From a virus, in the IMG/VR virus record IMGVR_UViG_3300005253_000529, positions 1 through 47,073 of that record: 47,073 nucleotides of DNA; one strand, given 5' to 3'. Below, one piece after another: positions 20,592-41,268 of the stretch. The position numbers and the translations under genes were made by a program. The notes under the pieces are model-generated. The model saw only the letters and a program-made list of their open reading frames with translations. It searched no databases and was not told the origin of the DNA. The number at the start of each line of letters is the position of its first letter. Position 1 is the first letter of the stretch.

Positions 20592-20863
20592 TCGTCAGTA
20601 GCGGGCAGGTAAAGGCTGGCTTCATAGCCGTCGCCCATCTCGTCTAGTGCGTTCACTACTGCAGTCCAGCCGGCACGGAAGGCGTCTTGAGCCTCTGCCT
20701 TGCTTACCTTCTTATGGAGATTGCGATAGGTGTCACCAAAGGGACCTGACCACCAGGTTTGAAAGGCTTTGGCCCGAGCCGCGGCTTCAGCATGAAGTTC
20801 CTCCTGTTGTGTGAGCGCTGCGTCCGCCTCATCGTTGGCGCTGGGGTAAGGTTCATTGACCAT
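20588..20863 (-). CDS. Hypothetical early protein
   Basis: 91 residues from the ATG at 20863; an upstream TTG would add eight residues and overlap more of the glycosylase gene. Helical, Ala/Glu-rich start (EADAALTQQEELHAEAAARAKAFQTWW) followed by KKVSKAEAQDAFRAGWTAV, which resembles phage proteins containing a short A..AF.AGW motif. No function assigned. It ends in an ATGA overlap with the polymerase start. Confidence 0.6.
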   Translation of the reverse strand: MVNEPYPSANDEADAALTQQEELHAEAAARAKAFQTWWSGPFGDTYRNLHKKVSKAEAQDAFRAGWTAVVNALDEMGDGYEASLYLPATDE

Positions 20864-22025
20864 GAAGGCTACACTCCACTTTCTCAATCGGATAGTGTGG
20901 CAGGTCGGCGCCCAGGAAATTCCTCAACGCGCGCTGCCAGTCATTGATTTGCTTCTGGACATACCGAGCGGTCCGGTTATGTAAGAAGAAGGCCGGGTGG
21001 TACAACGTCAAAGCGTCAAAGGAACACAGACCGGAGGGCGCTGCGTAGTAGCCGGTGGAGGATCGGTTGACCAGGCTGGACTGACTCGGGTTGCCCTTCA
21101 ACTTCAGGACTTCCTTCGCGGCTGTAGCCCCTAACAGGATCACCTTCTGAGGCTGGACCATTTGCATCTCAGCCAGTAAGAACCCTAAGCACGCCTTGAT
21201 GGTGTCTTTACTAGGTGTCTGTTGCTTCCGGTTCCATTGATGCCGACAGACTACCGCAGTTGGAAATGTTGAAGGCAATGGGGACAACGCACGGCTCCGT
21301 GATGGTGGGAGGCTATGACCACTTCGAGATTCTCCGGACGGTTGTCCCGTTTGTCCCCGTTTTTGTGATGCACCTGCTCCCACGACTCTAACAGTCGATG
21401 AAGGTGCCACATCATTACTAACCTGTGGACCCGCATCGCTTTCCCGTTTACTGACACTTGTAGATAACCGTCCCGGTCCATATTCTGGCGTCGGGTGTTC
21501 CGTTCCCCCTTGAACCACAGATTGCTGCATAGATGATGGGTCTTCAGGTTCCTTCGAGGCTTGCTGGTTGGCCATTTCGGGTACCATACCCGCTTGCACA
21601 GGAGGCAGGACCGCCAAAGGAGCGGGCAAGTGTGCCCCGTCCACCGGGCTTCCCTCGCCGCTTGAACCCACGCGCGGGGGCGGGCTTCGCCTTTCTTGAA
21701 TACCATCCCCACCTATTATACCACATTTACGACACATTAGGTGGAAGGGTCGGTGCTTAGCGATGTTCGTAATGTAGTACGACGTCAACCCGCACTCCTC
21801 AAGCATGGTCCGGAGTAGCTGGCCCGATGATCCAATGAAGGGCCGGCCGGCGTGCTGTTCTGTGCCCCCGGGGGCCTCACCGATCACCATCATAGTAAAG
21901 TCACGCTGCTTGATGAAGGTAGGCTCTGAGTGAACGTACTCCCCCGGCACACCCTTCCCTTGAGTATGAAGAGGACACGCTTCACACGCCCGGACCAGAC
22001 TACTCAGAGTCTCGTAGCTTGCCAT
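20853..22025 (-). CDS. Family 4/5-type uracil-DNA glycosylase interrupted by a mobile insertion
   Basis: 390 codons in one open frame. Residues 1-99 hold the N-terminal half of a Fe-S uracil-DNA glycosylase: CEACPLH (C14, C17), [20 protein letters not shown] (motif 1) and [10 protein letters not shown]. Residues 262-390 hold the rest: [28 protein letters not shown] and LYHPAFFL. The 162 codons between are low-complexity Pro/Ser/Gly/Arg sequence because they are the out-of-frame reading of an embedded HNH gene. In uninterrupted enzymes the two halves are nearly adjacent. The product would remove uracil from DNA if the insertion is tolerated or removed. Confidence 0.75.
21243..21728 (-). mobile_element. 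HNH homing-endonuclease insertion in the glycosylase gene
   Basis: Best boundaries by eye are 21728 and 21243 (486 bases, 162 codons), because joining the flanks gives MCR-HQWNRK in frame. Both junctions carry TGTCG, a possible target-site repeat. Nearly all of the insert is the HNH gene, leaving only about 24 bases besides it, far too few for a group I intron core. The exact ends could shift by several bases. Confidence 0.6.
21251..21712 (-). CDS. HNH homing endonuclease nested in the glycosylase gene
   Basis: 153 residues in the +1 frame relative to the glycosylase. The N-terminus [13 protein letters not shown] and a Cys-containing segment ([10 protein letters not shown]) are typical of free-standing phage HNH enzymes. 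The catalytic part has [35 protein letters not shown] (H-N-H) and a terminal CPHC. The start is supported by AGGTGGGG. It ends in TAG. Acts by cutting glycosylase genes lacking the insertion and copying itself by repair. Confidence 0.8.
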
Positions 22026-23320: not shown

Positions 23321-23396
23321 TGGTGGGGGCGGTGGGAGTCGAACCCACATTTAGCCCTGAAGCCAGTGACCTCAGAAATCCGTACCCGACGCCCCC
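23321..23396 (-). tRNA. tRNA-like gene, isotype undetermined
   Basis: Minus strand: acceptor stem GGGGGCG / CGCCCCC, discriminator A, encoded CCA, T-arm GTGGG-TTCGACT-CCCAC, total 76 nt. The acceptor pairing continues three bases into the flanks. The best anticodon arm is TGAGG-TCACTGG-CTTCA (one G-U), whose loop lacks U33; read literally the anticodon would be ACT. The D-arm is weak (CGGG/TCTG, two G-U). It could be a divergent or degenerate tRNA. A covariance-model scan is needed to fix the isotype. Confidence 0.6.
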
Positions 23397-39720: not shown

Positions 39721-41268
39721 ATGCCTTATTACGCGCCCGGAGACATTTTCCCGCAACCCGAGCCTGAACCGGCGCCGGAGCCTGATACGTCCTCGTTCGA
39801 TTTGTTTGCGGACATCTTCAAGAGCATCTACGAATCGTCTCTTACTCAAGCTAGCGGGTCGTCATACCTTCAGGAAGTACAGGCCGCTCTGGCTCAGGAC
39901 CAGTTCGCTTTCCAAAAGACACAATGGGCAGACCAGCTTGGTCAGTGGAGTCAGCAATTCGGCTTCTCGAAAGAGCAGTTCGATACTTCGACTCAGCTTC
40001 AGCGCGACCAGATGGTCCAGAGCGCGTCACAATTCATGTTGTCGTTCGGCTTGTCGGAAAAAGGCCAAGAGGCGGCACAGCAACAGTTCCTTCAGACGTT
40101 TGCCTTCCAACAGGAGCAATTTGAATTCTCGAAGGAATCATTCTCGGACCAACTGGACTTCTCTAAGATCCAGTTTGAGGAACAGTTGGGCTTCAGCTAC
40201 GACCAGCTTGAACAGCAACTCGGGATGCAGGAGAACCAACTGTCCTTCCAGCGTGAGCAGTTGGCGGCGTCAGCGTCACAATTCGCCGCGGAGATGGGCC
40301 TTCGGACGGAGGCACTTGGAATACAACGTGAGACAGCCGCCGGCCAGCTTGAACTCGGCCGCGGTCAACTCGCCTTGGGTCAACTTTCTGAAGCTCACGA
40401 CTACGAGCTTGCTAAGGGCGGCCTGGCCCTCTCTCAACGTCAGCAGGGCTTCTTTGAAAAGACGACCAATACACAGATGCTCATGGAAGCCGCCGGACTG
40501 GCTGCCTCTCCGACTGGCGCCATCCAACTTGCTTACATGGCTCGTAATGCCGGCGCCCCCTCCGGTGCGATCGCTGACATCTTCTCGAACCTGCCGTTCG
40601 TTCAGGCAGCGTTGGCTGGTAAGACCCTCCCCGGCTTTGGTGTCCCTGAACAACTTGGGGGTACTGGTGGTAGTAGCGGCGTCTCTGCAGATATGGATAC
40701 CGGTGCGCTAATCAACGCGGCTCTCGGGCCTGAAGGTGGCGGCTCCCCTAGTAGTGGGGGCGGGGCGGGAGTAACGAGCGGGACCAGCCTAAGTCCAGAG
40801 ACAGCAGGGTCTACACCCGCTACCGTAGACTTGTACTCTCTGAGTGAAACAGAACTCCGTGATCTAGGCATCAAAAAGAGTGCGGGGGGTGCTTTCTTCT
40901 CTGGTGTTTACGACGCTGAGGGAAATAAGACGGGTACTGAGCAACGTATTCAGGGCATACGGAGTGACCTTCAGAACTACCAAACAGGTGAGGTTACAGA
41001 GCAGACGGCTCCGACAGCAACCCCGACTGCTACGGCCCCGACAACTTCCGGGGCGCCGACTGGTGACATCTTCAAGCGCGGCCTCGGCGTCGAACTTCCC
41101 AGCCTGACGTCAATCACACAAGAACAGTGGGGCGGCATGAAGTCGTCTGAAAAGCTGTTCCTGGGTGCGCTATACCAGTCTGAAACCGGTATCCCGATTG
41201 AACAAGCTCTTAATGACATCCAAAGGTCCTTCATTCCGACTGCCCAGACTAGCCGCCTGAGTTTCTAA
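39721..41268 (+). CDS. Gln/Phe-rich repeat protein, putative ejection protein
   Basis: 515 residues. An acidic Pro/Glu start (PQPEPEPAPEPDTSS) is followed by about 200 residues (45-245) of degenerate short repeats of the type QFxFxKEQFxxQLxF, strongly Gln/Phe-rich, probably an extended coiled or helical rod. The C-terminal half has Gly/Ser/Thr linkers and a small folded part (LSETELRDLGIKKSAGGAFF). Such proteins form inner cores or periplasmic tunnels during DNA ejection. No named family recognised. Confidence 0.5.
   Translation: MPYYAPGDIFPQPEPEPAPEPDTSSFDLFADIFKSIYESSLTQASGSSYLQEVQAALAQDQFAFQKTQWADQLGQWSQQFGFSKEQFDTSTQLQRDQMVQSASQFMLSFGLSEKGQEAAQQQFLQTFAFQQEQFEFSKESFSDQLDFSKIQFEEQLGFSYDQLEQQLGMQENQLSFQREQLAASASQFAAEMGLRTEALGIQRETAAGQLELGRGQLALGQLSEAHDYELAKGGLALSQRQQGFFEKTTNTQMLMEAAGLAASPTGAIQLAYMARNAGAPSGAIADIFSNLPFVQAALAGKTLPGFGVPEQLGGTGGSSGVSADMDTGALINAALGPEGGGSPSSGGGAGVTSGTSLSPETAGSTPATVDLYSLSETELRDLGIKKSAGGAFFSGVYDAEGNKTGTEQRIQGIRSDLQNYQTGEVTEQTAPTATPTATAPTTSGAPTGDIFKRGLGVELPSLTSITQEQWGGMKSSEKLFLGALYQSETGIPIEQALNDIQRSFIPTAQTSRLSF

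Follow-up and report, generated by a model that had tools for sequence, protein, structure and literature searches.

A probable frame-sparing insertion of an HNH homing endonuclease gene in a viral uracil-DNA glycosylase gene

The stretch of DNA analyzed here, which we call the window, comprises all 47,073 nucleotides of the IMG/VR virus record IMGVR_UViG_3300005253_000529. It contains a gene for a uracil-DNA glycosylase (UDG) and, wholly within that gene but in another reading frame, a gene for an HNH endonuclease (Table 1). The UDG open reading frame (ORF) matches the Pfam UDG family in two separate stretches (1.2e-23, profile search) and the NCBIfam family-4 model TIGR00758 at 4.2e-28, which is under the curated cutoff of that model. 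Both the GEAPG and the HPA motif are present, the latter conforming to the HPx of the family-4 fold. The Fe-S cysteines C14 and C17 (CxxC) and C279 are kept, but the four-Cys set of family-4 UDGs is incomplete, with His91 (21753-21755) in place of the third Cys of KCRPP. The same His occurs in the uninterrupted viral UDGs L025, L013, L015, and L046, indicating that the insert did not cause the loss of this Cys. By fold and motifs, we refer to the window enzyme as family-4-like; searches with the whole 390-residue product found no close relatives.

The HNH ORF lies in the +1 frame relative to UDG, so that the third base of each HNH codon is the start of a UDG codon. It can begin with GTG at 21712 or, preferably, with ATG at 21706, and it stops at TAG (21253-21251). 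The ORF matches HNH_3 in Pfam (6.1e-9) and phrog_59 in PHROG (2.1e-15), and its catalytic residues H94, H113, H114, N116, N122, and N126 are intact and invariant in alignment A5. In the zinc ribbon, CSNLW is found where relatives have CSxxC, with Trp replacing the fourth Cys ligand (21515-21517); judging from this substitution, the nuclease may be decaying or losing function. The Shine-Dalgarno-like TAGGTGGGG ahead of the preferred start has a duplex energy of −6.3 kcal/mol, compared to a mean of −5.0 over 27 genes of the same phage, and strong internal Shine-Dalgarno sequences also precede several of the methylase-nested HNH genes described below. A perfect TATAAT at 21720-21715 was considered as a promoter and rejected, since it is too near the HNH start for an mRNA with a leader.

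Table 1. Features of the UDG locus and nested HNH genes found in other viral sequences
Feature	Coordinates	Strand	Description and basis
Family-4-like UDG ORF	20853..22025	minus	390 aa, with the interruption in the post-KHRP loop; Pfam UDG, family-4 fold, motifs
UDG N-terminal part, residues 1-93 to KHRP	21747..22025	minus	Alignment to L025 and 33 other viral UDGs
Enlarged UDG loop	21237..21746	minus	170 codons vs 5 in L025; alignment to L025 and 33 other viral UDGs; pLDDT
UDG C-terminal part, WNRKQQTPS... to stop, including the HPA motif	20853..21236	minus	Alignment to viral UDGs
HNH endonuclease ORF	21251..21712	minus	153 aa; zinc ribbon, HNH core, C-terminal CPHC; HNH_3, phrog_59
Shine-Dalgarno-like TAGGTGGGG	21707..21715	minus	Directly upstream of ATG 21706
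Nested HNH genes in other viral sequences			L099, L100/L101, L117 (two in one host), L123, L128, L133, L135, L136, L150, L154, L172, L176, L205

To place the insert, we used a joined-flank alignment search of viral sequences, which gave 502 UDG relatives, of which the best 80 were kept. By far the nearest relative among these best 80 of 502 is L025 (IMGVR_UViG_3300025327_000066), which is 54% identical to the window UDG over the whole protein, lacks the insert, and comes from a contig that also codes for a PolA relative at 51% identity. Where L025 has KHRP-PVTVG-YKGKQEKPN, the window has KHRP-[170 residues]-WNRKQQTPS. This comparison with an uninterrupted phage glycosylase places the insert after KHRP, between P93 (ends at 21747) and W264 (starts at 21236), with a net length of 165 codons (495 bp); L025 is one moderately distant empty-site orthologue, and the ends are uncertain by a few codons. 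The HNH ORF begins near the 5′ end of the insert and stops near its 3′ end (21712/21706..21251 in 21746..21237). The original prediction, made from the sequence alone, had described an HNH gene lying out of frame inside UDG without breaking the host frame, and UDG residues 94 to 263 indeed contain no stop in that frame. The proposed junctions (21243-21728, 486 bp) were right in marking a stop-free multiple of three but are a few codons off the 495 bp obtained with L025. Similarly, what had been called a 162-residue low-complexity insert amounts to a net 165 codons and is modeled as disordered.

In the other fetched UDGs whose motif was read, the same loop is short and uninterrupted; its length varies in the phage UDG-like proteins L009 and L010, and the segment just after it aligns to the His109 position in UdgX structures. 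Three more scans of viral sequences, based on subfamily peptides or DNA motifs, yielded no second insert-bearing UDG; their only matches were the L025 contig and a single distant UDG. Scanning bacterial genomes likewise gave no insert-bearing UDG, just distant Anaerolineales UDGs. TGTCG occurs at both ends of the insert (21734 and 21248, 486 bp apart), but we rejected it as a target-site duplication because a 5-mer match is expected by chance.

An AlphaFold2 model of the 390-residue UDG product, built from a 35-row alignment, has both UDG parts modeled well (many residues with pLDDT of >90), whereas residues ∼110 to 246 have pLDDT mostly <50 and almost no secondary structure. The insert is thus predicted to be disordered and to be flanked on both sides by an intact UDG core. 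In Foldseek, the UDG model matches the family-4 UDGs 1ui1, 1ui0, 1l9g, and 4zby; the best match of the HNH model is I-HmuI (1u3e), weak by E-value (0.011) at a probability of 1.00.

The absence of stops from the UDG frame was compared with what the HNH protein would allow. When the HNH gene was recoded synonymously with phage codons, a mean of 7.7 stops appeared in the UDG frame, compared to 0 observed, and zero stops were reached in ∼2 of 10,000 trials (P of ∼2e-4; P values for the window are post hoc, the openness having been noticed before testing, and the replicate loci described below are independent). The divisibility of the insert length by three contributes a further factor of ∼1/3. 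Stops are avoided in the UDG frame only: the other alternate frame of the HNH gene has 7, compared to 4.0 expected. A stop arises in the UDG frame only where an HNH codon ending in T precedes AA, AG, or GA. T-ending codons occupy 0 of 28 such risky positions but 21 of 88 safe ones (Fisher P, 0.0015); the phage's other genes have them at 34% of risky positions, and phage codon usage gives a chance of ∼2e-5 of having no T at all 28 sites. Conditioned on the absence of stops, the host-frame peptide has 26 hydrophobic residues, compared to 33 expected (P, 0.0065), and is also poorer than expected in aromatic residues and Cys. We conclude that the UDG frame has, very probably, been maintained in a translatable state across the HNH gene. 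The stop pattern is similar under selection after insertion and under survival of rare insertions that were open by luck, and with either origin, reading through the insert matters.

The same arrangement recurs in other viral HNH genes. Among 117 distinct ones, pooled from two scans and five earlier relatives, 14 are nested in longer host ORFs that are open on both sides; L107 and L118, whose alternate frames are open but which lack a credible host, were left out of this count. With synonymous recoding, 15.0 stops would be expected in L099, 17.8 in L176, and 7.4 in L100, and all three have none. Openness is unlikely for most of the nested loci tested, some of which lie in AT-rich DNA, with 7 to 18 stops expected; taken singly, the GC-rich L123 and L133 do not reach significance. 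The mycobacteriophage ShiLan, which served as a positive control, was recovered, its 195-residue HNH gene having 0 stops in the methylase frame, compared to 3.3 expected. Nine of 10 hosts compared with Pfam match the N6_N4 methyltransferase family (L123 marginally), with L172 giving no match, and the hosts in L128, L135, L172, and L205 resemble methyltransferases by motifs. From matches and motifs, all 14 nested genes apparently lie in DNA methyltransferases; the window UDG is the sole glycosylase host that we found.

The nested genes differ in register and in the start of the insert. L099, L154, and L176 share the rarer +1 frame of the window; ShiLan and most methylase cases have the HNH gene in the third frame. 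Eight third-frame inserts on contigs, along with those of ShiLan and Cr-LKS3, start with a near copy of their 3′ flank (P, 0 to 0.02). The similarity test did not detect such a copy in the third-frame L135, L136, and second insert of L117, and it is absent from L099, L154, and the window, in which the similarity between the insert 5′ end and the 3′ flank is not significant (P, 0.52). In the third-frame methylase inserts that have it, the starting segment is a KPAxEPIILARKP-like near copy of the host segment after the insert (L101, L117, L123, L128, L133, L150, L172, L178, L179, and L205, with L135 by eye). In L099 and L154, a host CxxC knuckle precedes the HNH gene, and the host frame of the window has CRKCG there (21734-21720); this common context may reflect a shared target preference.

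The arrangement itself was described in 2025 for the ShiLan methylase and Pacc40 gp60 (PMC11855218; see also the earlier PMC9957025). In that description, an in-frame, stop-free insert that is neither an intron nor an intein is occupied by an HNH gene in another frame, and a patchy distribution was taken as evidence of homing. The window insert likewise is a multiple of three filled by an alternate-frame HNH gene, and in both cases zinc fingers adjoin the HNH domain and the host-frame product is predicted to have no clear structure. They differ in host (methylase versus UDG), in register (third versus +1 frame), in the insert 5′ end, which resembles the 3′ flank in ShiLan but not in the window (a trait that the class does not require), and in the Shine-Dalgarno-like sequence before the HNH start, found in the window. 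A patchy distribution speaks for homing in the published cases; for the window, the scans gave a single empty-site orthologue and no second insert-bearing UDG, and its mobility is presumed. The viral N6/N4 methyltransferases L099 and L154 share with the window the relative frame, the lack of a 5′ flank copy, and the open host frame, although their inserts lie between two CxxC knuckles of a methyltransferase; the L099 HNH protein, at an E-value of 6e-18 one of the closest relatives found, likewise has CPYC..F at its end. Free-standing phage HNH homing endonucleases (phrog_59, HNH_3) have the same zinc ribbon, HNH core, and C-terminal CPxC, but their genes sit between other genes instead of wholly within one. 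As far as could be found, methylases are the only hosts reported before: UDG is absent from the text of PMC11855218, and we found no report of UDG as the host of such an insertion in a search whose coverage mostly excluded subscription papers and preprints.

Several other explanations were weighed. The original prediction had offered, as one of two possibilities, a very recent gene disruption. On that view, the HNH gene would have inactivated UDG, and the open frame would be fortuitous. The insertion is a single observation, it lies near the UDG active site, and one zinc-ribbon Cys is missing from the HNH protein, all in keeping with a disruption. However, a targeted lack of stops needs selection or survivorship; with none of 7.7 expected stops present, an additional factor of ∼1/3 for the frame, no T-ending codons at just those positions that would create stops, and 14 other HNH genes that show the pattern too, we consider recent disruption unlikely.

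A self-splicing intron that went unrecognized, with the HNH protein as its homing endonuclease, would resemble the I-HmuI introns. Phage group I introns often carry HNH genes, and the group I intron-encoded I-HmuI, which shares the HNH fold, is the best fold match of the nested protein. The window, though, lacks an intron core: no group I or II Rfam intron family was found in it at the gathering score or even at a permissive threshold (E of ≤5), and none was found in the 14 similar loci. Moreover, only a few tens of insert bases are not HNH coding, and an insert removed by splicing would be free to carry stops in the host frame. We thus regard an intron as quite improbable, in line with the original prediction. 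Nor did we find homologues in which the middle segment is conserved in the glycosylase frame, which would have pointed away from an insertion.

Phage genes split by HNH insertions have been described; in Aeh1, a homing endonuclease gene, mobE, divides the conserved nrdA into separate coding regions, a genes-in-pieces arrangement (PMC2988022). By analogy, the two UDG parts could be made separately or reassembled, with the open frame only preventing polarity. Both systems have a homing endonuclease gene in a conserved phage gene, but the UDG frame is uninterrupted, with no stop between the two parts, and apart from TTG codons in the insert, no good start for a separate C-terminal piece was noticed; this makes a gene in pieces very improbable. 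Least probable of all is that the base composition or codon usage of an imported HNH gene explains the open frame without any constraint. T-ending codons are rather rare in the HNH gene overall (14%, compared to 23% in the phage), but at safe positions they reach 24%, near the 27% of the phage, and the openness remains unlikely when the gene's own synonymous codons (P, 0.014) or its codon order (P, 0.004) are shuffled. In addition, the HNH relatives L002 to L006 have 6 to 14 stops in that frame. An intein, motifs of which the original prediction had also failed to see, was rejected: Pfam and NCBIfam gave no intein family, and the insert is modeled as disorder with no Hint domain.

Thus, the window probably holds a frame-sparing homing endonuclease insertion with dual coding. 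The other original suggestion, a minimal homing insertion that the protein tolerates as a linker, gains support from the open frame, the negative intron and intein searches, the predicted disorder, the UDG core, and the methylase parallels. According to this explanation, an HNH homing endonuclease gene lodged in a variable UDG loop, beside the loop that carries His109 in UdgX. Ribosomes would read through the insert, yielding a UDG whose disordered loop spans ∼165 residues, and the same mRNA would also be read in the +1 frame from the internal ATG 21706, with its Shine-Dalgarno-like sequence, to make the HNH protein. That protein would cut or nick insert-free UDG alleles, and repair would copy the element in. 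A host enzyme kept in working order would spare the element the burden that comes with occupying a useful gene; a loop of this size near the active site could nonetheless impair UDG. We lean, if only somewhat, toward the fuller reading that the same DNA serves in two frames as a homing endonuclease gene and as the linker of a working repair enzyme, under joint selection.

Introns and inteins allow homing endonucleases to be tolerated cheaply in conserved genes, the insert being removed. In the window nothing seems to be removed; instead, the nuclease gene appears confined to a frame and a codon choice that leave the host frame readable. If true, frame-sparing dual coding would join introns and inteins as a third general way for homing endonucleases to occupy conserved genes and would not be peculiar to methylases, from which it would now extend to a DNA-repair enzyme; the nested loci on contigs of uncultured viruses take the ShiLan class well beyond mycobacteriophages. 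Stop-codon statistics, applied here to >100 HNH genes, offer a quantitative test that separates frame-sparing insertions from free-standing genes. Annotators should note that a long disordered insert in a UDG or methylase gene may conceal a second gene.

Other observations concern individual loci. In L176 (743-2662), the methyltransferase carries by eye an intein-like insert (CLSEDTEILTGEGW ... VFVTGN/S), with the HNH gene out of frame; NCBIfam gave no intein match for this insert. If it is intein-like, the splicing parts and the endonuclease lie in different frames. In ShiLan, a GTG (L178:1839) 26 codons after the published GTG has GGAGGACGA upstream (−9.3 kcal/mol) and the zinc ribbon downstream; on these grounds it may be the true HNH start, contrary to the published view that there is no detectable ribosome-binding site. 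Elsewhere in the window, ARAGORN calls a tRNA-Ser (anticodon act) at 23321-23396, where Rfam has no tRNA at the gathering score, and this call is probably false or degenerate. Finally, a 301-residue ORF (39806-40711) lies within a 515-residue ORF (39721-41268) on the same strand in another frame, neither having a PHROG match.
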